A stretch of 25,722 nt of DNA from a virus. How positions within the stretch are numbered: position 1 is the stretch's first letter; each line of letters opens with the position of its first letter. The translations under genes and the position numbers were made by a program. Shown one piece after another: positions 8,308 through 25,313 of the stretch. A model generated the notes under the pieces. The model searched no databases. It was given only the letters and a program-made list of their open reading frames with translations, and was not told the DNA's origin. The stretch is taken from positions 1 to 25,722 of the IMG/VR virus record IMGVR_UViG_3300046517_000035; one strand, given 5' to 3'.

Positions 8308-8748
8308 CTACCGATTCCATTCAAATCTGCAAATCTGTTCATTAGATTCAATAATTTTAAAGCCAAGCCATTTCAGCCACTTCTTGCTCTGATCAAAATC
8401 ATTAAATACAACCCCTTCGATCCGCCGAAAGCAGCTTTTCAACAACTCAATTCCGTCTTTAGAATGCCGAATGAATGTAATTGGATAATAGTCAATTGAC
8501 TCGCCGCAGATCATCCACAGCCAGCATGAATCGGAGAACGTCGAGGCTGTCTCGGCGCCCCAGATGGCAACAATACGGCCATCGATTATTCCAGCATATG
8601 AATGAAAGCTGCGTGCGACGTACTGCGCGACCGCATGTTCGATTGAATCTTTTGTAAATACTTCATAGCTCTGGCGCTCGCGGTCGCGCAAGTTAGCAAC
8701 CAAGTCCATCGCATGTTCTAATTGTGCCGGAACAATCTCTACGTTCAT
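8308..8748 (-). CDS. GNAT-fold internal virion protein A-like (DUF2833, T7 gp13-like)
   Basis: A 146-residue protein with the pattern of a GNAT-like fold: an N-terminal VEIVPAQLEHAMDLVANLR, a central AGIIDGRIVAIWGAE strand pair, and a C-terminal FDQSKKWLKWLGFKIIE resembling the last helix and strand of N-acetyltransferases. The acetyl-CoA pyrophosphate loop (Q/RxxGxG/A) is not visible, so catalysis is doubtful and a structural role is more likely. T7 gp13 family proteins (DUF2833) show the same degenerate fold and sit in the same place, between the nozzle and gp14. The start overlaps the nozzle stop as ATGA. Confidence 0.7.
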   Translation of the reverse strand: MNVEIVPAQLEHAMDLVANLRDRERQSYEVFTKDSIEHAVAQYVARSFHSYAGIIDGRIVAIWGAETASTFSDSCWLWMICGESIDYYPITFIRHSKDGIELLKSCFRRIEGVVFNDFDQSKKWLKWLGFKIIESNEQICRFEWNR

Positions 8749-11393
8749 TTATCACCCATTGCCACTTCTGGTATAACAGCTAGGACAGAAATAGGCAAGC
8801 CCGGCGTGCCCTCAATACAAACTTGGCCAATCACATTATAACTTGGATCCATCCACAAACGCATGTCGCCTGTTACAAGCCCGCTACCGTTATAAGGAAG
8901 TACCTCTGCCTCGTCTGTATTCGACAGGCCCGTGCGCCACGGCTTCAGAGTATTAAACGAAGTACCAATCATTACACCCTGCGAATCCTTCACACGCACG
9001 GAGGCCGCCGCTACCTTCTTCCGCTTCCCCTGCATTGTCGTTTCGCCGCCCACATCCAAGTAAGTTGTCTGAAGCTGCGGCATAAACGGCTGTCCAACAA
9101 CAACTTGCGACCCCGGAGAGAGAAGCGTTATAGAACCCGCCGAAGGCACAAACGGGCCTTGCACTTCTCCATCAACCAATGCGTAAACAGCAAGGCCGTT
9201 CAAATGCGTTAAACCCGAGACTACACTTACATTCGCATCAAGCCGCCACTGATTCGCTGGTATATTCAAGTTAATCACAGGGAATGGATATACGATAGTT
9301 CCTAAGACGCGCTGTGTGTTGATAAAGGACGTAATTGTCGCTCGTCCTTTAGAAGCTCTTAGTGTCTTACCCACAGATCCTGAGTTAAAGATTGGTACGT
9401 TGGAATCCACTTGTACGGTCGTCGGGCCTGTATTTGTTATAATAATCGTCGCCGCCGGAAAAGTCGGCACTGTCGATAACGCAGAATCAAAACACCAAGC
9501 GTCATCTACTTGGTCATAAATACGATCACATAGACGTTCGATCCGCCGCGTTCCTAGACGGTTGACAACTAAGTAGACCGCATCTGTAGAACCCTCACGC
9601 ACAACCGCGACATCTTCAAAGATGCCGATTGTATCTCTATGTGTCCAACCAATTACTTCTTGGGCTTTCAGATAAGTGCAGCAGAGCAGAACTCCGTCAT
9701 CACGAACGGACCAGATCACTTTGTATGGCGTGTCTTGGTACGCCCAACTTACAATCGTCCTTGGATAAAACAAATGCGACGAAAGCACCGTTATATCCAC
9801 ACCAGTATAGATGTTAACAAAGAAGTTGTACTGCAAGTCGCGAATCAACGAACCTTCGCTCTGAACATAAAGAATGTCATAGTCGATCACAATCGGATCA
9901 ATGTCAGCCGCCCCGTAGTATGACTGCGGAACGATGACGGCGGATGTTGGCGTGACCGCTAAGGGATTGGCCGCGTTTGCGCTGCCGCCGGTCAACTGAA
10001 CAATCCCCGAATTTGTTCCAATCACCAGCCCGCCCGGCATTGATTGCATCCACACAATGTCATTCACTTGTTGCGATGCAATTGTGAACTCTAGTGCGTC
10101 GTTGTCGGAGACAGGATTGGATGTTCTAAAGTCATTGACATGGCCGGGGTGGCTTAGGAAGATTGTGTTAGGCTGATTAAGTGTTGATGCGTAAGCCTGC
10201 CGCTGTTGAAACAAACTAACTACATCTGGATCGAATCCGGTCGCAGGACTTAACGTAGCTGTAGCTGTAAATGTGGTGCCGCCTCCCACCGCTGCCAAAG
10301 TCGGCGCCGAGTAAAGGCTTCCACCATTAACAATCTGAATCCCTGTTATTGTCCCAACGCCAGCGGCCGTGTTATTACTTAACGTCGGAATCAAAAACGC
10401 CCCGCTTCCGGTCCCGTCTGTTACTGTTATGGTAGTCCCGCCAACCGGCCAATCCGCCGAACTCGCTGTAATTGTATACCCAATTATCTTACTTGCTATG
10501 AACGGATTGGTCGGATTCGGCGGCGACTGCGTAAAGTCAGGAATGATATTTGAATCCGCAAACACCGTGCCGTAGCTAAATCCAGCGTAGCCGTACTGTT
10601 CAGTCATCGACGGAACTTTGTCGCCCGGCGTCGGCAGCGATTTGTAGATTTTATAGAACGCTGCGTTCGCGACAGGCGTGAAGAAGACGGTGACAGTTCC
10701 TTGTGTTGTCCCGATGTCAATGCCTGCGGCCGTGACGAAAGGTACACTCGCGGCGCTTTCCGTTCCGCCCGTGTCAACACAAGTGACTACATACGAATAC
10801 CTTGTCTTCTGTGGATCAGTAGAACCTACTGGTAATGGTGAAATTGTTATAGCTGAAATCGTCGGGGCGGCCACCATCGTATTAGTGATTACTGTAAGCG
10901 TCCAGTTAGTGTCGGTGATTCTCGACAAGACGCGGCGGGAATAGCCGTGCCGCGTTATCGTTAGTTGATCCGCAACTTGTGAATACTTTAAGAACGGCAA
11001 GTCCACCTCTGCATAAGGTGTGGTTACCTCGTAAGGAACGCCCGGCGAGCTTTCGATGAACGCCGCATTTGACGAATTGGGATAACTTGCGCCGCCTGAG
11101 TTTTTAATGAATCGCAGCTTCAATGCACTAAAGACCAGCATGTACGTCTGGCCGACAGCGGCCGAGAACTGGAAAGGAATTAACCGAACCTTTCCAGCCG
11201 ATCCAGCCACTCCAATGTATTGTGTCCCGGGCGCACTAGATGCCCCGCCTTTATAATCAACGAAGAAATTCCGCATAAAAATCGCAGATTGGTGTACCTT
11301 AGCTAAATCAGTGCGGCCGTACAGCGCCGGGCTAATCTCACCGTTCGCGAACGAATTTGCAATTAACGAGATTAAGCTGTCGTCTTGCGCCAC
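8745..11393 (-). CDS. Tail nozzle protein (tail tubular protein B, gp12-like)
   Basis: An 882-residue protein beginning with GTG, directly after the TAA of the third adaptor gene. The N-terminal signature NSFANGEISPALYGRTDL followed by MRNFFVDYKGGASSAPGTQYIG is typical of podovirus tail nozzle proteins. T7 gp12 (about 790 residues) builds the lower tail tube. Two extra beta-rich regions appear inserted: a fibronectin-like one at about 170-250 (TRYSYVVTCVDTGGTESAAS...AAFYKIYKS) and a glycine-rich one at about 300-388 (DGTGSGAFLIP...IVNGGSLYSAPT). The region from about 400 (FQQRQAYASTLNQPNTIFLSHPG) onward looks like the beta-propeller core. The three genes before it encode the adaptor ring on which the nozzle would dock. 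Confidence 0.85.
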   Translation of the reverse strand: MAQDDSLISLIANSFANGEISPALYGRTDLAKVHQSAIFMRNFFVDYKGGASSAPGTQYIGVAGSAGKVRLIPFQFSAAVGQTYMLVFSALKLRFIKNSGGASYPNSSNAAFIESSPGVPYEVTTPYAEVDLPFLKYSQVADQLTITRHGYSRRVLSRITDTNWTLTVITNTMVAAPTISAITISPLPVGSTDPQKTRYSYVVTCVDTGGTESAASVPFVTAAGIDIGTTQGTVTVFFTPVANAAFYKIYKSLPTPGDKVPSMTEQYGYAGFSYGTVFADSNIIPDFTQSPPNPTNPFIASKIIGYTITASSADWPVGGTTITVTDGTGSGAFLIPTLSNNTAAGVGTITGIQIVNGGSLYSAPTLAAVGGGTTFTATATLSPATGFDPDVVSLFQQRQAYASTLNQPNTIFLSHPGHVNDFRTSNPVSDNDALEFTIASQQVNDIVWMQSMPGGLVIGTNSGIVQLTGGSANAANPLAVTPTSAVIVPQSYYGAADIDPIVIDYDILYVQSEGSLIRDLQYNFFVNIYTGVDITVLSSHLFYPRTIVSWAYQDTPYKVIWSVRDDGVLLCCTYLKAQEVIGWTHRDTIGIFEDVAVVREGSTDAVYLVVNRLGTRRIERLCDRIYDQVDDAWCFDSALSTVPTFPAATIIITNTGPTTVQVDSNVPIFNSGSVGKTLRASKGRATITSFINTQRVLGTIVYPFPVINLNIPANQWRLDANVSVVSGLTHLNGLAVYALVDGEVQGPFVPSAGSITLLSPGSQVVVGQPFMPQLQTTYLDVGGETTMQGKRKKVAAASVRVKDSQGVMIGTSFNTLKPWRTGLSNTDEAEVLPYNGSGLVTGDMRLWMDPSYNVIGQVCIEGTPGLPISVLAVIPEVAMGDK

Positions 11394-12167
11394 TTAGTAC
11401 ACTCCACCCGCATCTTCCACGCCCGGGACAGAACACCAACCGGTAGAAAAGCCGTCCCAATATGTTGAATACGACGTTCTACTTCTGATCCAATCTGGAG
11501 TGTGATCGTTGACCGTCCAACCTTCATTTCCATCGCGCGCCCGGGCCACTCCGAGACACTCCGCAGCGATTCTTAAGTTGTCGGATCTAATGACTTGTGC
11601 CAACTTCTTGTCGGGAATACACGGCATAGCCAGCCGCGCCGCAAGCAGGGCAACCATCGCTTGTTCAAAAAGTGGATCCCACGAATTGGGATATTGCATT
11701 AGCTTTGTATAAATCAGAGTCGCCTGTTGTACGTTCGTGACGATGCAGCGCGTCTGTTCTGGATCATGCCCTTCCGTTTCCTCCCACGCACCTTGCGCCG
11801 GAATCGGAAAAGAACCAACCAAGAACTTGGCCGGCGACCGATACGCAATCACCCCGCCCGGATTGGTATTGGGAATCCACCTAGCATGCACACAATCGAC
11901 CGGCCACTCATACATAAACTGCCAAGGACTCGGTGGTTGCACATTACTTACAGTCAAGTCGTTTAGCGACGCAAGTAAATTTAATGTCTGCTCCGCCCTC
12001 GCGAAGTTCCATTCCGCGCCACTCAAAAGCTGCCTCAATGTCGGCCAATAAATCCGCAGCGCCGCATTCGCCTGCGTCGTACCTTCTTGCAAGTCCCCGA
12101 TCTCGGCAACCCCGCATTCATCTAATGCGCGATTAACAATATCCTCAGGTATTTCTGGCGTTGCCAT
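11394..12167 (-). CDS. Tail adaptor (tail tubular protein A, gp11-like), third paralogue
   Basis: A 257-residue protein. It shares the family pattern NRALDECGV...L..GTTQANAALRIYWPTLRQLLSGAEWNFA and the signature PWQFMYEWPVDC with the two genes before it. It is the longest of the three, with an extended C-terminus (DGNEGWTVNDHTPDWIRSRT... to GGVY). T7 gp11 (196 residues) forms a dodecameric ring between portal and nozzle. The start overlaps the previous gene by 23 bases, and the stop abuts the nozzle GTG. It is probably the copy contacting the nozzle, but that is inference from order only. Confidence 0.8.
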   Translation of the reverse strand: MATPEIPEDIVNRALDECGVAEIGDLQEGTTQANAALRIYWPTLRQLLSGAEWNFARAEQTLNLLASLNDLTVSNVQPPSPWQFMYEWPVDCVHARWIPNTNPGGVIAYRSPAKFLVGSFPIPAQGAWEETEGHDPEQTRCIVTNVQQATLIYTKLMQYPNSWDPLFEQAMVALLAARLAMPCIPDKKLAQVIRSDNLRIAAECLGVARARDGNEGWTVNDHTPDWIRSRTSYSTYWDGFSTGWCSVPGVEDAGGVY

Positions 12168-12705
12168 CTTGCTGTGCCTGCATCTGATGCGGAGCTAAAC
12201 TCGGCGCTAACTTCTTAGCCAACACGGCGATGAACTGGACTGTGAAATCTTCATGCCACAATGTAGGATCATGCACTTCGGCGGTGTACGTCAGTACGGC
12301 TTTATCCACATTCGAAAGAATTGTTCTGATGCCACCAGAAAAGTTTACACGAAAGACGTTAGCTTGCGGCTTCCAGATTGGGTAGAAGAAGATTTGCTCT
12401 TTAATTTGAAGCGGAACCACACAGTCGTCAGGGAAGCCATACTCAAACTTCCAAGGCATCGGCGGATACAAAGGCCCCCAATCAATTCCCGGTTCGTACT
12501 GCGCCGGGGCCTGCCGAAGTAAAGTTAGCGTAATGTCCCGCGTTGCCCAATCCGGCTTGAGCATGTGCAGTAGTTCATCTCTAGTCTCTGCATAGCAATT
12601 AAGCGCAACTCTTGCCGCTGCCGAGCCTTCATAGATATTCCCTACATGCCGCTTATAGCCAATCAAATCTAATGACTGATTAACTAAAGTCTCAATAGTT
12701 GTCAT
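12145..12705 (-). CDS. Tail adaptor (tail tubular protein A, gp11-like), second paralogue
   Basis: A 186-residue protein with the adaptor pattern VNQSLDLIGYKRHVGNIYEGSAAARVALNCYAETRDELL..DWA and the signature PWKFEYGFPDDC. Its length is close to T7 gp11. It starts on an ATGA overlap with the first paralogue. Its C-terminus (APHQMQAQQDGNARNT) overlaps the third paralogue by 23 bases. It would act in the head-tail connector, either as a mixed ring with the other copies or as a stacked ring. Confidence 0.78.
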   Translation of the reverse strand: MTTIETLVNQSLDLIGYKRHVGNIYEGSAAARVALNCYAETRDELLHMLKPDWATRDITLTLLRQAPAQYEPGIDWGPLYPPMPWKFEYGFPDDCVVPLQIKEQIFFYPIWKPQANVFRVNFSGGIRTILSNVDKAVLTYTAEVHDPTLWHEDFTVQFIAVLAKKLAPSLAPHQMQAQQDGNARNT

Positions 12706-13238
12706 GAATCCCTCAGATCAGCTATCCCGGCGAACTGCAAGGCTTCAACCAACTTCTCTTTACTTCCATCCGTCCTATTCTGGAGCGCGAATGACAACGC
12801 ACTTCCAAGCAGACGAACAAACGCTTCAGTAAAGATGGAGTCCCAAAAATCAATATCAGGTGCATATGTGTAAATAATAAATATGAGCGGAGTGTTTGTG
12901 ACTATCGTTCTTATCACGCCGCCGCCAGATACATTCCACTCCACCGGAAGTGGATTAAGCGTAACAGTAGTCGCCGGAACCGCCTGTCGAATCCTGATGC
13001 AGTCATTTGGATAATTATAGGAAAACGCCCAAGGAAAGGCAACGGCCCCTCCAGCAACAACCGTCGCCTCTTTCATTGCAAAGTCGTAATCGCCCTCGCG
13101 CAACATGAAGTCGCGCAGAGGATTGAACAATATGTTAGCGTACAGTGCTTCAGTCGAGCCGTCTGTCATCGACGAAATCTGCGAACGGCTGCCGATCTCC
13201 GCCAATGCCCGATTCGTCAAGTCAACGTCAGTTGTCAT
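12702..13238 (-). CDS. Tail adaptor (tail tubular protein A, gp11-like), first paralogue
   Basis: A 178-residue protein. It starts TDVDLTNRALAEIGSRSQISSMTDGSTEA and continues LYANILFNPLRDFMLREGDYDFA, the classic N-terminal helices of the gp11/adaptor family, followed by the signature PWAFSYNYPNDC. The C-terminus (FVRLLGSALSFALQNRTDGSKEKLVEAL) is helical, as in T7 gp11. The start overlaps the preceding small gene as ATGA and the stop overlaps the next paralogue as ATGA. Confidence 0.82.
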   Translation of the reverse strand: MTTDVDLTNRALAEIGSRSQISSMTDGSTEALYANILFNPLRDFMLREGDYDFAMKEATVVAGGAVAFPWAFSYNYPNDCIRIRQAVPATTVTLNPLPVEWNVSGGGVIRTIVTNTPLIFIIYTYAPDIDFWDSIFTEAFVRLLGSALSFALQNRTDGSKEKLVEALQFAGIADLRDS

Positions 13239-13447
13239 TTAACAACCTTTTTTGCTTCAATAAGCCATTCCCATAACGTGCTTTTCTGTGCCTCGGCATC
13301 TTCGACTGTAGCCTTCATAAGTGCCTGTTGAAAAGCTACTTGTGCTTGAAGTGCTTGAACCATTTGTACGGCGTAGCGCGGATCTACCTGCTGCGCCAAA
13401 GCAGGCAGGCTGAACAACAAGAGCAGAATAAAAATTAACTTCACCAC
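13235..13447 (-). CDS. Small exported protein with Sec signal peptide, function unknown
   Basis: A 70-residue protein with an N-terminal signal peptide (KLIFILLLLFSLPALAQQ, predicted cleavage after ALA) and a helical remainder (VQMVQALQAQVAFQQALMKATVEDAEAQKSTLWEWLIEAKKVVK). There is no cysteine after the signal, so it is not a lipoprotein o-spanin. The start is GTG at 13447 (a second GTG follows directly), overlapping the previous stop, with GGAG nine bases upstream. It lies between the 510-residue exported protein and the first adaptor. A periplasmic role, for instance spanin-like or superinfection related, is possible but not shown. Confidence 0.65.
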   Translation of the reverse strand: MVKLIFILLLLFSLPALAQQVDPRYAVQMVQALQAQVAFQQALMKATVEDAEAQKSTLWEWLIEAKKVVK

Positions 13448-14973
13448 GTTGGAATACTCCGTGTAGTACCGTTATCGTTAATTTGAATCCACTTCGTCGG
13501 ATTGCCGGCCACCGGCGCGTTAGTCAAAGTAGCTGTGAACCCGGCGGCGCTATCAGTAAGACTAACACTCGTGTTAAGCAATGGTGATGCTTTAGTAAGA
13601 ATAAGATTGCTATTGACAGCTACGTTAGTACCGAAAAGCGAAAGTGTGGCAACACTAGCATTACCATAATTCTGAATTGTGTAGTTAGCATCGGAACCGA
13701 CTGTGAATGTTGATCCACTGCCGGACAGTACTATACGATTGTTTATGATTAAATTACTCTTGTCGGGCATTCGGACCGAGGCTCCTGTAGCCGCCCCGCC
13801 CGGACCAAGCAAAGTCAAGGCTCTGGCCGAATCTACAGCAGTGAATAATTCTAATCCGCCCGCCTCGCTAGCAGTCAACGTAAGACTGCCGAAAGTTCCG
13901 CCGGTATCATAAAATCCCATATTGATGTCTTGAGATTTTACACTATTGCCAAAAGAGTCCTTTGGGCTGATGGCCGCGAAGATATTAGTAGATCCAGGGT
14001 TAGCTTGAAGAAATACTGACCATTTTGCTGTATCGCCGACATGTGCGCCGACATTAACATCAAGACCTACTAGGCCAATAGCAACAGCCGAAGCGGGCTG
14101 CGATAATGAGGCACCAGCAAACAGCAGTCCATTTATGGTGGTGTGTGGCGAGGTCACATTGAAATCGAGTTCGTTATTCAATTCCTTGTCAGTACCGCCA
14201 CTGATTGCGCCAGTTGTCGTGTCGGTAAGCAGTGTATTTACACCCCAAACTTTGGCTCCGTTGGCCCGCGCTACCCCAGCCGCGAACAGGCCAACCGTAG
14301 CTGGAAAGCTACCAGTAGTTACCGCATCGCTTACAACATAAGAACCCACGCCGGTCACTAGGTTTACAGAAGTGGCGGCCGGGGCCACCGCAACGCCGCG
14401 TACCACATCGTATGTTGATGCAGTACACGGAAGTGTGCATCCCGACGCAGTAAACGTATAAGTAAGAATGTCACTAGATGTAAGACTTGTGTTATTACGC
14501 GAAGTGAATGCGGCCGCATCTGACGACAAGGTGGTTTTGATATCCGTAATCGCCGCTGCACCTTGCCTTAGCAGAGCACCTGTAGTGCTATTCCATGAAG
14601 CAATCTCGTTTAACACAGTAGGATTAGGCCCAGCTACATTTCCGCTTCCTGTGCCGTTGAAAGGATAAACAACTCCATCTATGGTAAAGATGGGCGCGGA
14701 ATTAGAGTCGTGGCCGAAGCACAACGAATGGTATGTACCGCCGGTCAACGCAGAGTTATAGCACAAACCAAGGCCGAGGTTGTCAGTAATTGAAAACGGG
14801 GCAGCACCTTGGCCGCGATTGTCCCCGGTCAGTCCGCCGATTGTACCAATGAAATGGTCGCCGACAAACTTGCCGATTCCGTCTTTAATGACCGAGCCGC
14901 TCTGCATAACCGCTGACTGCGCGAATGCAGACGAACTTAGAAGAAAGCAGAGTAGCCCAGCCGTCCACTTCAT
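13441..14973 (-). CDS. Exported beta-rich, fibre-like protein with Sec signal peptide
   Basis: A 510-residue protein that starts with a convincing signal peptide (LLCFLLSSSAFAQS, cleavage after AFA). The body is low in charge and rich in Ser, Thr, Ala, Gly and Asn. It has phage-fibre style motifs such as NPTVLNEIASWNSTTGALLRQG near residue 115-140, and repeated beta-strand segments in the C-terminal half (SNLIINNRIVLSGSGSTFTVGSDANYTIQNYG). It overlaps the 114-residue gene as ATGA. A Sec signal on a virion-module protein is unusual, since virion proteins normally assemble in the cytoplasm. It may be a tail fibre whose leader is not used, or a protein displayed by the infected cell. No enzyme motif was recognised. 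Confidence 0.65.
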   Translation of the reverse strand: MKWTAGLLCFLLSSSAFAQSAVMQSGSVIKDGIGKFVGDHFIGTIGGLTGDNRGQGAAPFSITDNLGLGLCYNSALTGGTYHSLCFGHDSNSAPIFTIDGVVYPFNGTGSGNVAGPNPTVLNEIASWNSTTGALLRQGAAAITDIKTTLSSDAAAFTSRNNTSLTSSDILTYTFTASGCTLPCTASTYDVVRGVAVAPAATSVNLVTGVGSYVVSDAVTTGSFPATVGLFAAGVARANGAKVWGVNTLLTDTTTGAISGGTDKELNNELDFNVTSPHTTINGLLFAGASLSQPASAVAIGLVGLDVNVGAHVGDTAKWSVFLQANPGSTNIFAAISPKDSFGNSVKSQDINMGFYDTGGTFGSLTLTASEAGGLELFTAVDSARALTLLGPGGAATGASVRMPDKSNLIINNRIVLSGSGSTFTVGSDANYTIQNYGNASVATLSLFGTNVAVNSNLILTKASPLLNTSVSLTDSAAGFTATLTNAPVAGNPTKWIQINDNGTTRSIPTW

Positions 14974-15902: not shown

Positions 15903-16394
15903 TCATCCTCCTTGTCGATTGGCTAGAGCATATTCACCATGCAGGCGCTTTTCTGCATTTTTGCGTACTTCGACGGCTTCAATAAGGCTGTCAAAACGCC
16001 CAAGATTGTAGTGTCTACCATTAACGTTAATCTGCGCGAAGTATTTATTGCGTGAACAGTCGAAGGTCACACCGCGTACTCCAGTTTTACCTGTAGCTCG
16101 TGCTGCATTCATCATCTGTTGACTACGATTTACTTCACGCAGATTTGCCCATCGATTATCGGACGGATTACCGTTAATATGATCCACTTCAACAGGCCAT
16201 TCACCTGTTTGATGAAGCCATATAAGACGGTGGCTTTGATACAATATTCCATCGATGCGGATTACAACATAGTCACGACTTAAGCAACCTGCTGGTTTAC
16301 CGATATTGCAGCCGATACGGTTTTTGATCCAGTACAGATTCCCTGTATTTGGATCATACCTAAAAAGACTACGCACATCATCAACGGAAACCAT
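15903..16394 (-). CDS. HNH endonuclease with AP2 DNA-binding domain (homing type)
   Basis: A 163-residue protein. The HNH module shows H55 in SHRLIWLHQTGEWP, then VDHINGN (D71-H72), N80 and NLREV at 84-88. The C-terminal AP2-type DNA-binding domain spans about 104-156 (GVRGVTFDCSRNKYFAQINVNGRHYNLGRF...EAVEVRKNAEKRLHGEYA). This two-domain layout is typical of free-standing homing endonucleases of phages. It sits between the cement protein gene and the 168-residue gene, interrupting an otherwise structural block. Its last residues (RQGG) are encoded by the Shine-Dalgarno of the next gene. It is not needed for the virion and is probably a mobile insertion. Confidence 0.9.
   Translation of the reverse strand: MVSVDDVRSLFRYDPNTGNLYWIKNRIGCNIGKPAGCLSRDYVVIRIDGILYQSHRLIWLHQTGEWPVEVDHINGNPSDNRWANLREVNRSQQMMNAARATGKTGVRGVTFDCSRNKYFAQINVNGRHYNLGRFDSLIEAVEVRKNAEKRLHGEYALANRQGG
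15907..15913 (-). promoter_or_regulatory. Strong Shine-Dalgarno inside the HNH 3' end
   Basis: AAGGAGG, five bases from the ATG at 15901, decides the start of the 168-residue gene. The same bases encode the C-terminus of the HNH endonuclease, whose TGA at 15903-15905 lies between the site and the ATG. Confidence 0.8.
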
Positions 16395-16921: not shown

Positions 16922-16927
16922 CTCCTT
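16922..16927 (-). promoter_or_regulatory. Shine-Dalgarno overlapping the major capsid stop codon
   Basis: AAGGAG shares two bases with the TAA of the major capsid gene (16926-16928), seven bases before the ATG of the cement gene. It couples the translation of the two capsid proteins. Confidence 0.7.
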
Positions 16928-17969
16928 AGACGATACGAGCTTCGGTGTTCAAGATCGCATCAACCGTGCGAACCGGAACGCCTCGGAATGCAGTCACGAC
17001 ATGACCGTTGTACTGTTCCATCGTAAGCAAGACGTTCGTCTTATTCATGGCCTGTAGGTCAAGATAAGTGCGAACGACACGATTGCAGTAAATAACAGTC
17101 CGGCCCATCATCCCTTGAATGCTCGGCGCATCCGAAGTCTGCACGCCGCTCATCGTCGGACTAGTCGTCGGCAACCGATAGAAGCCGCGAATAAGTCCGT
17201 TGATAATGTTCGCCGCCGATGCACTGTTAAGCAACGTCACGTCGATGTTAGCGAGTCGGACGTTGTAACGCCAATCGCGAACGGTCAGGCCACACTCCCA
17301 CTTATAGTGATCTCTATAAGCCTGGAACAAATTGTTGCTACCGTCCGTAACCGGCCATTCGCCCATATCTTTGTGCTGCAAGCCAGTCATCTTACCTTTC
17401 GGGAAAATCCCGTGCGTGGTATTCGCGCCCCACGTTACGATCCAAATGGACGTATTCGTAGACGCCGTGCCAAGCATGTCGATGACATTAACAGCGGTCT
17501 GGGCCGTTGCAGTCGTCACTGAGTTATAACGCGGTGCAAATCCCATGAACCTTTCTGGATTTACCGCCGTGTTGCCATAGATCAGCGTCGATGCGACCTG
17601 CTGATTCATACCTTCCAAGAATGCATAAGTCTCGGAAAGGCGGAACTCAGCAGTATTGCCATTAAGATCGGCAATGTCCTTGTCCACTTCTGCGTAGACT
17701 TCCAGATCACCGCAGGTGTCGATGATCTGTGCAGTCGTGGACTTGGCGCGCGGCACACCATAATTGAGCAAGCGCCACGTTGCTTGCGGTAGGCCGGTTC
17801 GTACCGTCGTCTTATGTCCTGTTGGCAGATTCCCTTCCATTACAAGTTCGTCTAGAAGGATCTCATTCGTTTGCGACAAAAGCTCGACAATCGTCGCAAT
17901 CTTATAGTCATCGTCCAAACGCTTCGCCCAATCAGCGTAGGTAAGGACAGTCGTACCCAAGGTTGCCAT
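16926..17969 (-). CDS. Major capsid protein, BPP-1 Bbp17-like
   Basis: A 347-residue protein reading LTYADWAKRLDDDYKIATIVELLSQTNEILLDELVMEGNLPTGHKTTVRTGLP at the start, with TWRLLNYGVPRAKSTTAQI and a C-terminal NGHVVTAFRGVPVRTVDAIL. These are hallmarks of the major capsid family of BPP-1-type and related podoviruses, an HK97-like fold with a circularly rearranged topology. It builds the icosahedral head on the scaffold. It follows the scaffold gene and precedes the cement gene. TAAGAGG at the scaffold stop supplies the Shine-Dalgarno. Confidence 0.92.
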   Translation of the reverse strand: MATLGTTVLTYADWAKRLDDDYKIATIVELLSQTNEILLDELVMEGNLPTGHKTTVRTGLPQATWRLLNYGVPRAKSTTAQIIDTCGDLEVYAEVDKDIADLNGNTAEFRLSETYAFLEGMNQQVASTLIYGNTAVNPERFMGFAPRYNSVTTATAQTAVNVIDMLGTASTNTSIWIVTWGANTTHGIFPKGKMTGLQHKDMGEWPVTDGSNNLFQAYRDHYKWECGLTVRDWRYNVRLANIDVTLLNSASAANIINGLIRGFYRLPTTSPTMSGVQTSDAPSIQGMMGRTVIYCNRVVRTYLDLQAMNKTNVLLTMEQYNGHVVTAFRGVPVRTVDAILNTEARIV

Positions 17970-18626: not shown

Positions 18627-18861
18627 TTGATTCTCTCAACATCTGTAAGTAAAGGTCAGGGGAAGATTCCATAATATCGGCGGTAAGTCGGAGGCCGACA
18701 TTCCGGTGGCCCTCATTGAAAGCCATTGACAAGGCATTGGATGCAAAGGATGAAGTATAGATGTGGCAGGATGCAAGCAAATCATAAAAATACGACCGCC
18801 CGTCTGGGGTGGACATAAATTTGGCGAGTAGCTGAAGATGCTCACGGCGTTTCGATCTCAT
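18502..18861 (-). CDS. Bbp19-like protein
   Basis: A 119-residue protein. Residues 1-77 match the small Bbp19 family: RREHLQLLAKFMSTPDGRSYFYDLLASCHIYTSSFASNALSMAFNEGHRNVGLRLTADIME. Members lie beside the portal gene in BPP-1-type podoviruses; their role is not established. Residues 79-119 are an acidic Asp/Gly/Ser-rich tail encoded over the start of the scaffold gene in a different frame. The start overlaps the portal stop as ATGA. Confidence 0.75.
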   Translation of the reverse strand: MRSKRREHLQLLAKFMSTPDGRSYFYDLLASCHIYTSSFASNALSMAFNEGHRNVGLRLTADIMESSPDLYLQMLRESNANPATAVRGSADDSGGNDGDSSGDDRTGDDNGSRSGYSAS

Positions 18862-20534
18862 TGACTTCCGCGCCCCAGCATAAGTTGCAGTGCATTCGCC
18901 CCGCCGCCTACATTAGTATTTGAAAGTGTCTCGGCGCCTTGCGCAAGTCCTTGCCCGGCCTGCATTGCCTGCTGTTCTGCCTGCTGCTTCGCCTGCTCTT
19001 CGTCCATCGCCTTTACTTGTTCATCAGAACGGATCAAGCGTGCATCGACGCCGAGTGCTTCGCCGTAAACATCCATCGTTTGGTATTCGTCTAGCTTGTT
19101 AAGAATGTTAGGTTTAACTCCTGCGATAGAACCGGCGAAGGCCCACAGCTTTTCGATTCCGGCGGTTGCCAAGCCCCGTTGGGCCATAGCAAGCATGGAC
19201 ACATAGTCTACTTGAATATGAGTCGGTGCGCCAGCTAGTTTTGCCGGGGGAGGCGGTAGCAGCCCGCCCCGCCACATAATGCCCCAAGTGCGATCAATCG
19301 CCGGACCTAAGCCCTCCCCTATGATCCTTTCAAGAACCGGCCCAAGCAAGACTAACTTCTCTTCGCGCCTTGCATCAATTTCAGTAGCGGTGCGAACGGT
19401 TTGAAGGTCAGTAATGCCAGTAAATAAATCATTGTGGAAAGTAATCTTAATCCTATTCTGTATCTCCCGAATGTCCTGCATCATCTCGCCGATTTGCGGC
19501 TGCACTTGATAAATCGGCTTCATGCCTTCGCGGCCCGTCAGCAGGCCTGCGACATACGTTACGCCGCCGGGCAGCAAAGATGCAGGTTGGTTCTTCAATG
19601 AAACGTCCGCTTGCATCGGCGGATTGACCATCTTGTCAATCGCTTGTCCTTTGCGCCGCGTTTCTTGTTGAAGTTGTTTGGTGTCGCCGAGTGCATCCAT
19701 CCCGGGCGAGCGGCCGTATGGATCATTACCAGACGTGTCCCACCGGGGATTGACGCACGGCCACTCATAAAATCCTTGCGCCCGTAGCACTCGATCATTC
19801 GTACTACCTTGTTCCCAATACACTTCGCGGAAAGGAAAACGCTTCGGCACCTGATCAAAGTTGTCTTTATTTGCTTCAATTACATGACACACAAGTTTTT
19901 CTTGCGTAGATAAGCTCGCTTGGGCGCCCGGCCCCACACTCTGCTTTACATCTTGACTTACATTCTCGATCCCAAACATACCAACAAGCTGGCTCATCGA
20001 CATTGTAAGTTCGCGGGCCACCGTCCTGACTTGCAGCTTATGATTCAGATCAAAGAAGTACTCGCCCGCGCACGGATTATAACAATGAATAACATTCTCG
20101 AAGTCTTGGTAAACAATAATACATGCAGTCCCGAACACAACCAAGTCGAAATACATTATGGCAATTGCTTGGTAGAAGTTAGATTCTTGGAAGACGCGCA
20201 TCATCCGGCGATTGCATTCACCAAGCCAGATAGCTACATCAATGTCATCTTCCATATTCTCGATCTGGAGTTTAAACCACGGCCGCGTCGGACTTGAGAT
20301 GCCGGCTGTCATTCCAGAGGCTAAGACGCGAGCCGCAAGTGTCGCGGATGAATCAATGATGTTATTATTGATCGGCGAGCCTCGATTCATCTGATTGGCA
20401 ATTACCAACCAACGATAGCGCCGGGGCAGAATGAAGTCGGCTAATTCTCTCCAGTGTAACCACCAAGAATAACGCTTGATACGCATACCCGCGAGCAGGC
20501 CGTCACAATGCGTTCTGAGGGCTTCGGCGCTCAC
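18858..20534 (-). CDS. Portal (head-to-tail connector) protein
   Basis: A 558-residue protein of the podovirus head-tail connector family (T7 gp8-like, 536 residues). It starts at GTG 20534: SAEALRTHCDGLLAGMRIKRYSWWLHWRELADFILPRR is the family's standard N-terminus, and the GTG lies two bases after the stop of the 47-residue gene. The frame is open 84 codons further upstream, but that extension is Arg-rich antisense-like sequence inside two other genes. Further family motifs are ARVLASGMTAGISSPTRPWFKL, FGTACIIVYQDF and the Gln-rich C-terminus (EEQAKQQAEQQAMQAGQGLAQG). It forms the dodecameric ring through which DNA is packaged and ejected. Confidence 0.93.
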   Translation of the reverse strand: MSAEALRTHCDGLLAGMRIKRYSWWLHWRELADFILPRRYRWLVIANQMNRGSPINNNIIDSSATLAARVLASGMTAGISSPTRPWFKLQIENMEDDIDVAIWLGECNRRMMRVFQESNFYQAIAIMYFDLVVFGTACIIVYQDFENVIHCYNPCAGEYFFDLNHKLQVRTVARELTMSMSQLVGMFGIENVSQDVKQSVGPGAQASLSTQEKLVCHVIEANKDNFDQVPKRFPFREVYWEQGSTNDRVLRAQGFYEWPCVNPRWDTSGNDPYGRSPGMDALGDTKQLQQETRRKGQAIDKMVNPPMQADVSLKNQPASLLPGGVTYVAGLLTGREGMKPIYQVQPQIGEMMQDIREIQNRIKITFHNDLFTGITDLQTVRTATEIDARREEKLVLLGPVLERIIGEGLGPAIDRTWGIMWRGGLLPPPPAKLAGAPTHIQVDYVSMLAMAQRGLATAGIEKLWAFAGSIAGVKPNILNKLDEYQTMDVYGEALGVDARLIRSDEQVKAMDEEQAKQQAEQQAMQAGQGLAQGAETLSNTNVGGGANALQLMLGRGSQ

Positions 20535-20536
20535 AA

Positions 20537-20680
20537 TCAGCGGCCTAGCAAAAGGTAAAGAACTAGAATAACCAAAAGAAGGCCGCCGATCCCGAAGCCG
20601 CCGTTGTAGCCATACTGTGAGTAGCCCCAGCCGCCGCCGAACAGCAGCAGCAGAACAAGGACAACTAAGATGATGTCCAT
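20537..20680 (-). CDS. 47-residue two-helix membrane protein (DUF3309-like)
   Basis: A short gene easily missed between the holin and the portal. The product begins MDIILVVLVLLLLFGGGWGY, continues SQYGYNGGFGIGG and ends LLLVILVLYLLLGR. The two hydrophobic helices (about 3-14 and 34-45) with a Gly/Tyr-rich connection resemble DUF3309 proteins. The ATG overlaps the holin stop as TAATG, and the stop lies two bases before the portal GTG, so it fits the operon exactly. It may assist lysis (pinholin-like or antiholin), but this is inference from its place and topology. Confidence 0.75.
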   Translation of the reverse strand: MDIILVVLVLLLLFGGGWGYSQYGYNGGFGIGGLLLVILVLYLLLGR

Positions 20681-20973
20681 TATGCTGGCAACTTAGGCGG
20701 AGGAACAAGCATCGGCGCAGCAGCCGCCTGCCGGAGCGCCCGCTGCGCCTGTATCTTTTGCCACAACGACCAACAACCAGATGCAATTATCATCGCCATG
20801 CCGACACCCATCTGAATGTCACTGGCCGATACTGTTTGCGCCCACATGAAACCTGCGCTCCCAGCCGCTACCAATAAGGTACGGACTAATGCAGTCGCAA
20901 GCGGCACATACGCCTGCCACGTTTCCGGCAGTTGCGCCGTATTGATATTTGTTACTGAAGGTTGGTCAGACAT
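20680..20973 (-). CDS. Putative holin
   Basis: A 97-residue protein with two predicted transmembrane helices (about 23-45 and 55-72: ATALVRTLLVAAGSAGFMWA and MGVGMAMIIASGCWSLWQK) and a basic, Ala/Pro-rich C-terminus. It resembles small two-helix holins of alphaproteobacterial phages, which permeabilise the inner membrane. It begins with the Shine-Dalgarno TAAGGA formed by the stop of the coiled-coil membrane protein. Its stop overlaps the 47-residue gene. No endolysin is visible next to it. Confidence 0.68.
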   Translation of the reverse strand: MSDQPSVTNINTAQLPETWQAYVPLATALVRTLLVAAGSAGFMWAQTVSASDIQMGVGMAMIIASGCWSLWQKIQAQRALRQAAAAPMLVPPPKLPA

Positions 20974-22225: not shown

Positions 22226-22231
22226 CTCCTT
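22226..22231 (-). promoter_or_regulatory. Shine-Dalgarno at the 1027-residue gene stop
   Basis: AAGGAG overlaps the TAA at 22230-22232 and lies seven bases before the ATG at 22218. It fixes the start of the zinc-knuckle gene upstream of its signal-like segment. Confidence 0.65.
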
Positions 22232-25200
22232 AGAACGTATTCTGATAACCCCAATTTGGGAAACCCAAGAAACTAGTTCCATTCACTGCTAAGCGCGTAG
22301 CAGAGTCCGCTAAAACATTTGTTAGCCCTGTGGCACCCACTGCGATCAAGTAGTTTTGCGCGGCATTGCTCCATGCGAGATAGTTGTCCGGGCCTGTGCC
22401 AACCGGGCATTTACCGGATGCCGCATCTGGAGGCGTTGCCCAAATAATCCAAGGCCCGCCAAGACCTGCTATACCAGTTCTGCCCGAGCTTGGCAGTCCC
22501 GATCCAGTCGTATTAGTCGGAGTAATTACCGATCCACCCGGCGATGCCGACAAGTCGAAACTGTTTCCTGACACATTAACTGCATAGTACGGAACATCCG
22601 CAGTAAATCCAGCTGGCACCGCATTTGCTGCGGTCGGATCGAATATCCATTTATCTCCTGTTGAAATAACAAGGCCGGAAGACAGTCCAGTTACCGTAAA
22701 GGCTCGCGCCCCGGTTGTCCACGTCAATGTTGAAAACATGCCAGCGGCGGTAACGCCAAATTCTGCGTCACTACTGATGGGCGCTGCGTACCCACTGCCA
22801 TACGCTCTTGGAGCCGTCGTCATGTGAGAGTATTCAGTATAGAAATGATACCCCCCGAAGGTGGTGAGATAATATGCCAAGAAATTAGCTCTGTCTTGCA
22901 CATAAGCTATTGCAGCAGCATGCTGCCGATTACTAGTCGCAGACATACACATTACAACATCGAAATAATTTGCCATGAATGTGAAGCCGTTAACCATCGT
23001 CATACGACCGGCGGCCCCATCATTAACAGCAAAGTTACCGACTGAAACATAATAGGCATTCATGACGGCAGCGGTATTACATAACCCGATCACTGCCAAG
23101 TCATCGTCCGCACCGTCGAGAATGTATTGAAGAATCTGCGAACCGTCGGGATGCACCGCGCCTCGGCAGAATTGCGCTGCATGCTGGCGGTCTCTTGTTC
23201 CCCATGAAGATGTTCGCAGCCAGCCTTGCCCTGAGTTAATGGGAATAATGCCGTACTTAGTTACCGGGTAAGTGATATTTCTATTACTTGGTACTGTCAC
23301 TGACGTAGAGAAGTTAGCTTGCTCGAATAGCGTATCGTAAAACTCTGGCGAACCATAAACAAGTGTAGGGTAGTAAGCGTAGGAAGGTTTGTGCGAATTA
23401 GTTGACTCTACCCACTCAAATACATTATTGCCGGTCGGCGGCGCAGTAAATGTGCTGGCATTCACGCCATCCCAATAAACGCCAGTGGCGGCGGCGGGCA
23501 TTCCTGTGTAGGATTGATTACGTAGATTAAGAAGTTGGCGCGTAGCACGCTGCCGCAGCATTCCGTGGAACGCTCCCGCAAGCCCGATTGCACGGACTGC
23601 TTTCTCCCCGCCTGCACTTTGGTTAAAGAAATGCCTGGCTGTATAAGCTGGTGTAAGCCCAAGGTTGTCGCTGCTACCAGTTGCACCAACATCATCGTTC
23701 ATCGGACCGATAGATACCGGATTCCAATCGTACGATGCAGCCCACGTCGCGTTGTTATCAGTAACTCCGACTAAGCCTTGATTCCACGGCGGAATAAGGC
23801 CGGTTGAGTGAAGATAAGGTGCGTTATATTGACAACGTGTTGTATGGTCGGCCGTTAGCGAGCCGGCGCCCTGGAAGAAATTCCATTTGGCGTTGACGTT
23901 GTGTGTATAGATCGTGCCAAAGTGCAGGCAAGTTGGCACGGGGTTAAAGGTCATTACGCCGGTCGCATCGCCCGCCGCCGTGACGTAACTGCTACTAACA
24001 TTGTTCGATGACTTGCATAATTGGAAGGTTGTCGTGGCGTTTCGAGTAGCCGCCCAATAGATGCGTGTAGTGCTAATAGCGGTATCGGCGGCCCCGCCCG
24101 CAACAGTGACGTAACCGGGGATAAGATTGCCCCCCGCACCGCCGGAATACCAATGTGAGACATTTCCGGTAACGGCCGCTGTGAGATTCTTTGAGGCGGC
24201 CGTCGAAGTGAATGTCTGTGGCGTCGCCGGCCACACTAGCGGAATTGTAGTTGGCCCCGCACCGTGTTGTGTGCTAAGCGACGAAAAGGCCCGCCAATTC
24301 TTTACTGGCGAATCGACGTTGTACCAAGGCTGGCAGATGCGTGCAATGTGCCGGAAGCCGCCGAGGGCACCTAAAGAATCGGTCAACGCTGCGATGTAGT
24401 GGTAGCAAAAAAGTTGGCCGTGCGGTGTGCCGCCTGCCGTTGCTGCAAACTCAGTTTCAACACGCCACACTGTTCCGGCCGCGCCATCCAAATAAACATA
24501 CTGTGCTAGATTGTTGGCATCACTTTTGAGATAAGCGTTCCAGTTGCCGGTTAGGCCAAAGTTAGCGCCTGCGCCAACGCCGCTGATCTGGAGTACTTCT
24601 GTATAGACTTCAGCAAGTGTACGTGCGCCCGCCGCTGGATGCGTCCCGCCGTTCCAAATCTGGTAGACAACAGAAGCACTGCCTGCAATTGAGACTGTCG
24701 AACGGAACATACAAGCGGCCCAACATAAGGAGCCGTCCGGATAATAACTGGCATTGACTGCGGGAGTTGACGATTGCGGCTGCACCGTACCGCCCGGTTC
24801 CTTAATTACAAACCAAGTCCCGGCCGGAACGTCGCCTTGCGCAAAAGACATTCCAACAATGTCTGAAATGAAATTGGCAGCCTGCGTCGAGCCCGATGTA
24901 TTTACTAATGTAAGGCTGCTGATCTGGGTGTTACCCGAAGAGGAACCGACGATGGTGAATGGCTGTGTGAATGGCGAGCCGATTGCGCCGGGCATCGTGG
25001 CTACGATGTTGATTGCATACGATCCAGTGGCAACAGTACCGCTCGTCTTGAGAGTTGTCCCAACAATTTGAAAACTGGCCGCATCGGTTCCAGTTAAACT
25101 GAGTGTGCCAGTAAACGGCGCACCGGCTGCCATCTGCACAACAATGGAACCGACTGTAGTTCCGGTTGGGGCACCCCCGGTAAACGTAGTGTTACTTAAC

Positions 25201-25313
25201 GTGATGCCGGTAATCTGAATAATTGGAACACCAGTACCGCCGCCACCGTGAAAGAAGAACACCGGTAGCGCCGATTGCATAATCCTGCGGCGAGTGATCT
25301 GAAACGCCGACAT
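22230..25313 (-). CDS. Putative tail spike/fibre (receptor-binding) protein
   Basis: A 1027-residue protein. After a basic N-terminus (QITRRRIMQSALPVFFF) comes an Ig/cadherin-like domain at about 30-125 (ITGITLSNTTFTGGAPTGTTVG...DAASFQIVGTTLKTSGTVATGSYAINIVAT). The long central region is rich in aromatic residues and histidine (FCYHYIAAL, EFYDTLFEQANF, WGTRDRQHAAQFCRGAVHPDG) and could be a glycan-binding or glycan-cleaving alpha-helical domain. Two small beta modules of similar type appear to be inserted (about 394-456 and 863-938). It lies next to another fibre-like gene, which suits a receptor-binding appendage. No catalytic residues were identified; the depolymerase idea is inference. Confidence 0.6.
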   Translation of the reverse strand: MSAFQITRRRIMQSALPVFFFHGGGGTGVPIIQITGITLSNTTFTGGAPTGTTVGSIVVQMAAGAPFTGTLSLTGTDAASFQIVGTTLKTSGTVATGSYAINIVATMPGAIGSPFTQPFTIVGSSSGNTQISSLTLVNTSGSTQAANFISDIVGMSFAQGDVPAGTWFVIKEPGGTVQPQSSTPAVNASYYPDGSLCWAACMFRSTVSIAGSASVVYQIWNGGTHPAAGARTLAEVYTEVLQISGVGAGANFGLTGNWNAYLKSDANNLAQYVYLDGAAGTVWRVETEFAATAGGTPHGQLFCYHYIAALTDSLGALGGFRHIARICQPWYNVDSPVKNWRAFSSLSTQHGAGPTTIPLVWPATPQTFTSTAASKNLTAAVTGNVSHWYSGGAGGNLIPGYVTVAGGAADTAISTTRIYWAATRNATTTFQLCKSSNNVSSSYVTAAGDATGVMTFNPVPTCLHFGTIYTHNVNAKWNFFQGAGSLTADHTTRCQYNAPYLHSTGLIPPWNQGLVGVTDNNATWAASYDWNPVSIGPMNDDVGATGSSDNLGLTPAYTARHFFNQSAGGEKAVRAIGLAGAFHGMLRQRATRQLLNLRNQSYTGMPAAATGVYWDGVNASTFTAPPTGNNVFEWVESTNSHKPSYAYYPTLVYGSPEFYDTLFEQANFSTSVTVPSNRNITYPVTKYGIIPINSGQGWLRTSSWGTRDRQHAAQFCRGAVHPDGSQILQYILDGADDDLAVIGLCNTAAVMNAYYVSVGNFAVNDGAAGRMTMVNGFTFMANYFDVVMCMSATSNRQHAAAIAYVQDRANFLAYYLTTFGGYHFYTEYSHMTTAPRAYGSGYAAPISSDAEFGVTAAGMFSTLTWTTGARAFTVTGLSSGLVISTGDKWIFDPTAANAVPAGFTADVPYYAVNVSGNSFDLSASPGGSVITPTNTTGSGLPSSGRTGIAGLGGPWIIWATPPDAASGKCPVGTGPDNYLAWSNAAQNYLIAVGATGLTNVLADSATRLAVNGTSFLGFPNWGYQNTF

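Follow-up and report, generated by a model that had tools for sequence, protein, structure and literature searches.

What does a podovirus do with three adaptor genes in a row? T7 has one adaptor gene and one adaptor ring (PMC6702177). The window, by which we mean the whole 25,722-base virus record that was analysed, belongs to an epsilon15-like podovirus and has its late genes on the minus strand, and three consecutive minus-strand ORFs, here named A1, A2 and A3, lie between the capsid block and the nozzle gene. A1 (12702..13238, 178 aa) overlaps A2 (12145..12705, 186 aa) by 4 bases, A2 overlaps A3 (11394..12167, 257 aa) by 23 bases, and the start of the nozzle gene adjoins the end of A3. A sequence-only reading of this DNA had called the products three consecutive gp11-like adaptor paralogues of 178, 186 and 257 residues and had set them against the single adaptor gene of T7; both statements agree with what is reported below.

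The nozzle protein (8745..11393, minus strand, 882 aa) is a homologue of epsilon15 gp12 and Carin1 gp36 (phrog_376, 4.3e-150) and was also matched by BLASTP to the nozzle positions of loci L012 and L014. The major capsid protein (MCP; 16926..17969, minus strand) is of the epsilon15 gp7 type (PF20911, GP7, 3.3e-132), and the 642 aa portal protein (18858..20786, minus strand) matches PF12236 at 8.2e-138. The late genes also include a protease, a gp14-like internal protein (PF24072), a transglycosylase and a 1442 aa internal virion protein. The site of the adaptor genes, between the portal and capsid genes and the nozzle gene, is that expected of a T7 gp11-type adaptor. Directly upstream of A1 is a gene for a 510 aa fibre-like protein (13441..14973, minus strand; phrog_32740, tail fiber, 4.4e-07), the start of which resembles a signal peptide. 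In a single-sequence search its homologues were found in 14 loci with adaptor arrays; the remaining hits were all on contigs that are overlapping copies of array contigs, and none was in a single-adaptor locus. Two further minus-strand genes were recorded: a homing-endonuclease-like gene with HNH_3 and AP2 matches (15903-16394), inserted just downstream of the capsid cement gene, and a gene upstream of the portal gene (22230-25313) for a 1027 aa protein with only a sub-threshold match to a PcRGLX-like domain and no PHROG.

All three adaptor candidates matched phrog_394 ('tail protein'), A1 at 5.5e-29, A2 at 1.7e-20 and A3 at 3.8e-32, and none matched a Pfam family at E ≤ 1. In pairwise BLASTP, A1 and A2 share 28% identity (54.7 bits, E 2e-14), A1 and A3 29% (57.0 bits, E 8e-15), and A2 and A3 29% (61.2 bits, E 3e-16); the best scores from 1000 shuffles of each pair were 23.9, 23.5 and 24.6 bits. 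The pairwise HMM comparison that the sequence-only reading had proposed as a check gave E-values of 4.3e-20, 2.7e-17 and 1.7e-23 for the three pairs. We conclude that A1, A2 and A3 are true paralogues of the T7 gp11/epsilon15 gp11 adaptor. The motifs that had been cited for this relationship fared unevenly. PWxFxYxxPxDC is present in all three, at residues 69 (A1), 84 (A2) and 81 (A3), and NxAL...G is exact in A1 and A3 but reads NQSLDLIG in A2, while the supposed arginine-rich helix region is unremarkable, with two to three arginines in residues 30-60 of each protein. A search of the 25,722-base record for additional adaptor copies found none.

AF2 models were examined for A2 (mean pLDDT 91.6) and A3 (mean pLDDT 82.1, with residues 231-257, the last 27, below 50). 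The best structural match of both was the connector of Cobetia phage Carin1 (8ck1_E), with a VIA Z of 16.6 and an rmsd of 2.4 over 159 aligned residues for A2, and a VIA Z of 19.2 and an rmsd of 3.7 over 197 aligned residues for A3. The LME-1, cyanophage and T7 adaptors followed, with a VIA Z against T7 gp11 (6r21, 7box) of 9.3 for A2 and 12.1 for A3, and the crAss001 ring chains were weaker (7qoj_F; Z 7.5 and 6.9, respectively). Profiles of the three also matched 8ck1_E, at 1.2e-17 (A1), 9.3e-32 (A2) and 2e-42 (A3), the A2 and A3 profiles containing some rows of other families or of single adaptors. As modelled, A2 and A3 have the adaptor fold, a helix bundle with a beta 'fibre dock' domain, and profile homology indicates that A1 probably belongs to it too. 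An unrelated fold in one or two of the three had been named in advance as the outcome that would speak against paralogy; instead, both models are adaptors and the A1 profile points to the same solved connector. The core is of similar length in all three, and the ends differ. A1 consists of the adaptor core with a shortened last helix and lacks the C-terminal tail, A2 lacks both the fourth helix and the tail, and A3 is a full adaptor with a long last helix and a conserved C-terminal tail, NEGW..DHTPDWIR...EDAGGVY.

Among all loci fetched, 46 contigs carry at least two adaptor genes, and the order of the genes is fixed throughout. Some of these contigs nearly duplicate one another, and in about nine of the arrays the contig ends within the first or last gene. 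The arrangement is A1-A2b-A3 in 33 of the 46, A1-A2a-A2b-A3 in 11 and A1-A2a-A2a-A2b-A3 in two. Extra copies always belong to the middle family, and the first and last genes are never multiplied. Relatives of A3 in IMG/VR gave the same picture, with A1, A2 and A3 in the same order in 7/7. Loci were also collected by MCP: 33 of 80 span the interval from capsid to nozzle (the other 47 do not), and 30 of these have one adaptor and three have arrays, of three, four and four genes. No two-copy intermediate was found in the 33 loci with both MCP and nozzle, nor did any emerge from a second scan at E<0.1 with the HMMER filters switched off. A relative of A3 was also found on seven bacterial genome contigs, of which six, Burkholderia and Herbaspirillum among them, have one adaptor; the seventh, a 3.7 kb contig from a Patescibacteria MAG, carries three. 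When 50,697 GenBank phage records were searched by tblastn with five queries, no matching record had more than one adaptor place, although a second copy of 20-30% identity could escape such a search; the records matched, at one place each, numbered 12 (A3), 6 (A2), 99 (A1), 23 (A3 of L028) and 53 (A2 of L028). With the portal as query, no related viral contig was found.

Some arrays contain other genes. A forward-strand ORF of 73-74 aa lies between A1 and A2a, inside the ring-gene array, in relatives with four and five copies (L090 1820-2041 and L086 3840-4064; Pfam Acb2_Tad1_hairpin, 5.4e-10 and 1.5e-08), and from the name of the family it is likely an anti-CBASS or anti-Thoeris sponge gene. 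In L017 (871-2730), approximately 1.9 kb is inserted between A1 and A2, with three forward-strand ORFs besides A1.

As the models used to label the families in the 46 contigs were built from rows labelled by position, a tree provides an independent test of the labels. In a tree of 78 adaptor proteins, the first (16), middle (20) and last (14) families, to which A1, A2 and A3 of the window belong, each form one side of a branch, with support of 99/97, 100/100 and 100/100, respectively, and the same was seen with 100 rows. All of the extra copies from four- and five-gene arrays fall in the middle clade. Single adaptors are placed between the three families, and the branching order of A1, A2, A3 and the singles (82/85) is not settled by this tree. 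The MCP tree has 57 rows, 45 of them with a single adaptor and 12 from array phages; the latter form one side of a branch (SH-aLRT 95, by a quick method) and are nested among the former. The contigs of L028, L030 and L182, the deepest arrays, include no capsid gene and are absent from the MCP tree, and same-contig duplicates, truncated rows and most epsilon15-like singles were dropped from the adaptor and MCP trees. As the array is nested among single-adaptor phages, the single adaptor is likely the older state and the array appears to have originated once within the sampled set. On the A3 tree, in which the copy number is known for 27 rows, at least four changes in this number followed. Judged from these trees and gene orders, the array is ordered and old as a trait, and not a one-off.

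Homology, fold (from models for A2 and A3 and a profile for A1), invariant order, expansion of the middle gene only and a single nested origin together form the basis from which we infer how the proteins are arranged, including ring formation, stacking and stoichiometry. With fixed ends, a middle that can be multiplied and an order that does not vary, a stack of homomeric rings is the simplest model. We consider it quite probable that three different adaptor-fold proteins stack in this way between portal and nozzle, as a multi-ring barrel with fixed ends and an expandable middle. Each of A1, A2 and A3 would form its own ring, presumably dodecameric, and the rings would pile up into a barrel in place of the usual one-ring adaptor. 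A1 and A3 would not be multiplied because each meets a unique partner, the nozzle or the portal, and the A2 gene could be duplicated because its product would contact only other rings. In the relatives, each additional middle gene (one or two) would then lengthen the barrel by one ring. Of the arrangements suggested by the sequence-only reading, stacked rings are thus the best supported; a mixed ring is less so, given that copies number three, four or five while the ends stay fixed.

Which end of such a stack would face the portal was approached through the contacts known from T7. According to PMC6702177, the T7 adaptor holds the portal clip with its C-terminal embracing helix and with the end of the helix before it, and its alpha1-alpha2 loop touches the nozzle through acidic residues; contacts like these are described for the P-SCSP1u adaptor (PMC10575957). 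The array families were compared region by region with 31 single adaptors, with significance assessed by 223 circular shifts. Similarity to the singles in the C-terminal module was 0.34 for the last family (A3), 0.04 for the first (A1) and 0.01 for the middle (A2), and the first-minus-last difference was the lowest of the 223 shifts. In the alpha1-alpha2 loop it was 0.40 for the first, 0.29 for the middle and 0.26 for the last family, the highest of the 223 shifts, though this signal had been noticed in the table of regions before it was tested and was weaker with narrower limits (0.027 for 19-30) or against 12 far singles (0.050). In L028, L030 and L182, the deepest arrays, the loop of A1 does not resemble that of the singles, and A3 is also single-like at its H3-H4 turn, on the nozzle side. 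These comparisons suggest that the portal and nozzle docking faces, united in a single adaptor, have here been divided between the two end rings. As A3 keeps the C-terminal module that would grip the portal and A1 keeps the single-type nozzle loop, we tentatively favour the ring order portal-A3-A2(n)-A1-nozzle, as somewhat better than an even chance.

The order of the genes points the opposite way, with A1 on the side of the portal gene and A3 beside the nozzle gene. The same stack built in gene order, portal-A1-A2-A3-nozzle, would follow this arrangement directly, and in single-adaptor relatives too the adaptor gene immediately precedes the nozzle gene. However, it would place next to the portal a protein that has lost the C-terminal portal module, and next to the nozzle one that has lost the single-type nozzle loop, and we regard it as rather unlikely. 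The earlier proposal that the longest copy sits by the nozzle agrees with gene order in the same way, but the conserved surfaces and the T7 contacts point to the other end. The fullest form of the preferred stack, with ring order inverse to gene order, goes further. In it the number of genes would set the length of the barrel, with A3 as portal cap and A1 as nozzle cap enclosing a stackable middle of one, two or three tandem copies, and the docking faces of a single adaptor would have been split between the end rings independently of the crassviruses. This combination is possible, although we place it a little short of an even chance.

Departing further from the preferred stack, A3 might be the only working portal-to-nozzle adaptor, A1 and A2 having moved to roles on the outside such as a fibre-docking collar. 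Only A3 has the full C-terminal module common to single adaptors, and the fibre-like gene (13441..14973), whose product can be imagined as a docking partner, adjoins A1 in the window and has its homologues in array loci. Yet A1 and A2 retain the whole adaptor core, the match of A2 to solved connectors spans residues 2-175, and the single-type nozzle-facing loop is retained by A1 and not by A3, all of which makes this explanation improbable. We give slightly less weight still to a single 12-subunit ring in which A1, A2 and A3 alternate, four of each, breaking the symmetry for attachment of fibres or nozzle. The copies share a fold and a similar core length, and an equimolar 12-mer fits three or four kinds of subunit, but not the five encoded by two of the contigs. 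Expansion confined to the middle family with order kept also argues against a mixed ring. So does a comparison with the T7 adaptor, which PMC6702177 describes as monomeric without the portal and as having more contact with the portal than with its neighbours, whereas the module that grips the portal in T7 is lacking in A1 and A2. From the tandem arrangement one might suspect duplicates that are recent, redundant and without roles of their own, or an artefact of assembly, but these are hardly credible for families that are approximately 28% identical, form separate clades and recur in 46 contigs.

The known systems close to A1, A2 and A3 include the Carin1 connector gp37 (PDB 8ck1) and gp11 of Salmonella phage epsilon15, which belong to the same adaptor family, have the same gene neighbourhood and gave the best profile and fold matches; unlike the window, each of these phages has one adaptor gene. 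T7 gp11 (PDB 6r21, 7box) shares the helix bundle and beta domain. The single adaptors of the sister clade (L108, L135, L139 and L140) come from close relatives in the capsid tree and differ in being encoded by one gene and in having the fibre-dock domain interrupted, between beta strands, by an insert of approximately 90 aa. The clade adjacent to the arrays has thereby enlarged its adaptor by a different route. Single adaptors of approximately 363-384 aa are found in L108, L109, L116, L124, L135, L139, L140 and L165, and the insert was seen in the four inspected. The 363 aa adaptors of L108, L135, L139 and L140 had been considered as two fused adaptors, but each is one adaptor with an insert. 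Likewise, the 652 aa 'tail tubular protein A' of MW202478.1 (L015, 6729-8687) was considered as a fused triple array and rejected, as its adaptor occupies only residues ~421-649; a long repeat-rich N-terminal region is fused to this one adaptor domain.

Paralogous adaptor rings forming a tail barrel are a kind of structure already known from the crassviruses. PMC10172136 describes PhicrAss001 as having five stacked dodecameric rings built from four paralogous ring proteins of adaptor fold, gives the number of ring genes in many crassviruses as three and not four, and regards a barrel of several rings as a hallmark of the crassviruses, other podoviruses having been seen with one ring only. Another paper (PMC11784390) mentions 'one to three dodecameric adaptors' in podophages, with the GP4 structure and the crassvirus atlas as its sources, and GP4 or another solved podophage may thus have more than one adaptor ring. 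No description of a tandem array of three to five genes in an epsilon15-like lineage, expanding only in the middle, was found in the literature searched. The array resembles the PhicrAss001 barrel (R1-R4, PDB 7qoj/7qog) in that a single podovirus encodes a set of paralogous, putative ring proteins with the adaptor fold, and in that the number of these genes varies among relatives. It differs in that the ring genes of PhicrAss001, gp43, gp40, gp35 and gp34, are described there as not forming one adjacent block, whereas those here are strictly tandem, and in having arisen among single-adaptor relatives in an epsilon15-like lineage, where only the middle family expands. The A1, A2 and A3 profiles found no match to crassvirus ring chains at E ≤ 1, and the capsid and portal are of epsilon15 type (PF20911, PF12236). 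For these reasons the array is not classed with the crassvirus barrels, although its products may function in the same way. The natural series of one, three, four and five ring genes with fixed ends offers a way to test how short tails are lengthened, and it bears on how identical folds are ordered in a stack and how portal and nozzle faces are split between paralogues. If the stack is correct, rings were multiplied independently in the epsilon15-like lineage, and the multi-ring barrel of the crassviruses would be one instance of a recurrent solution.
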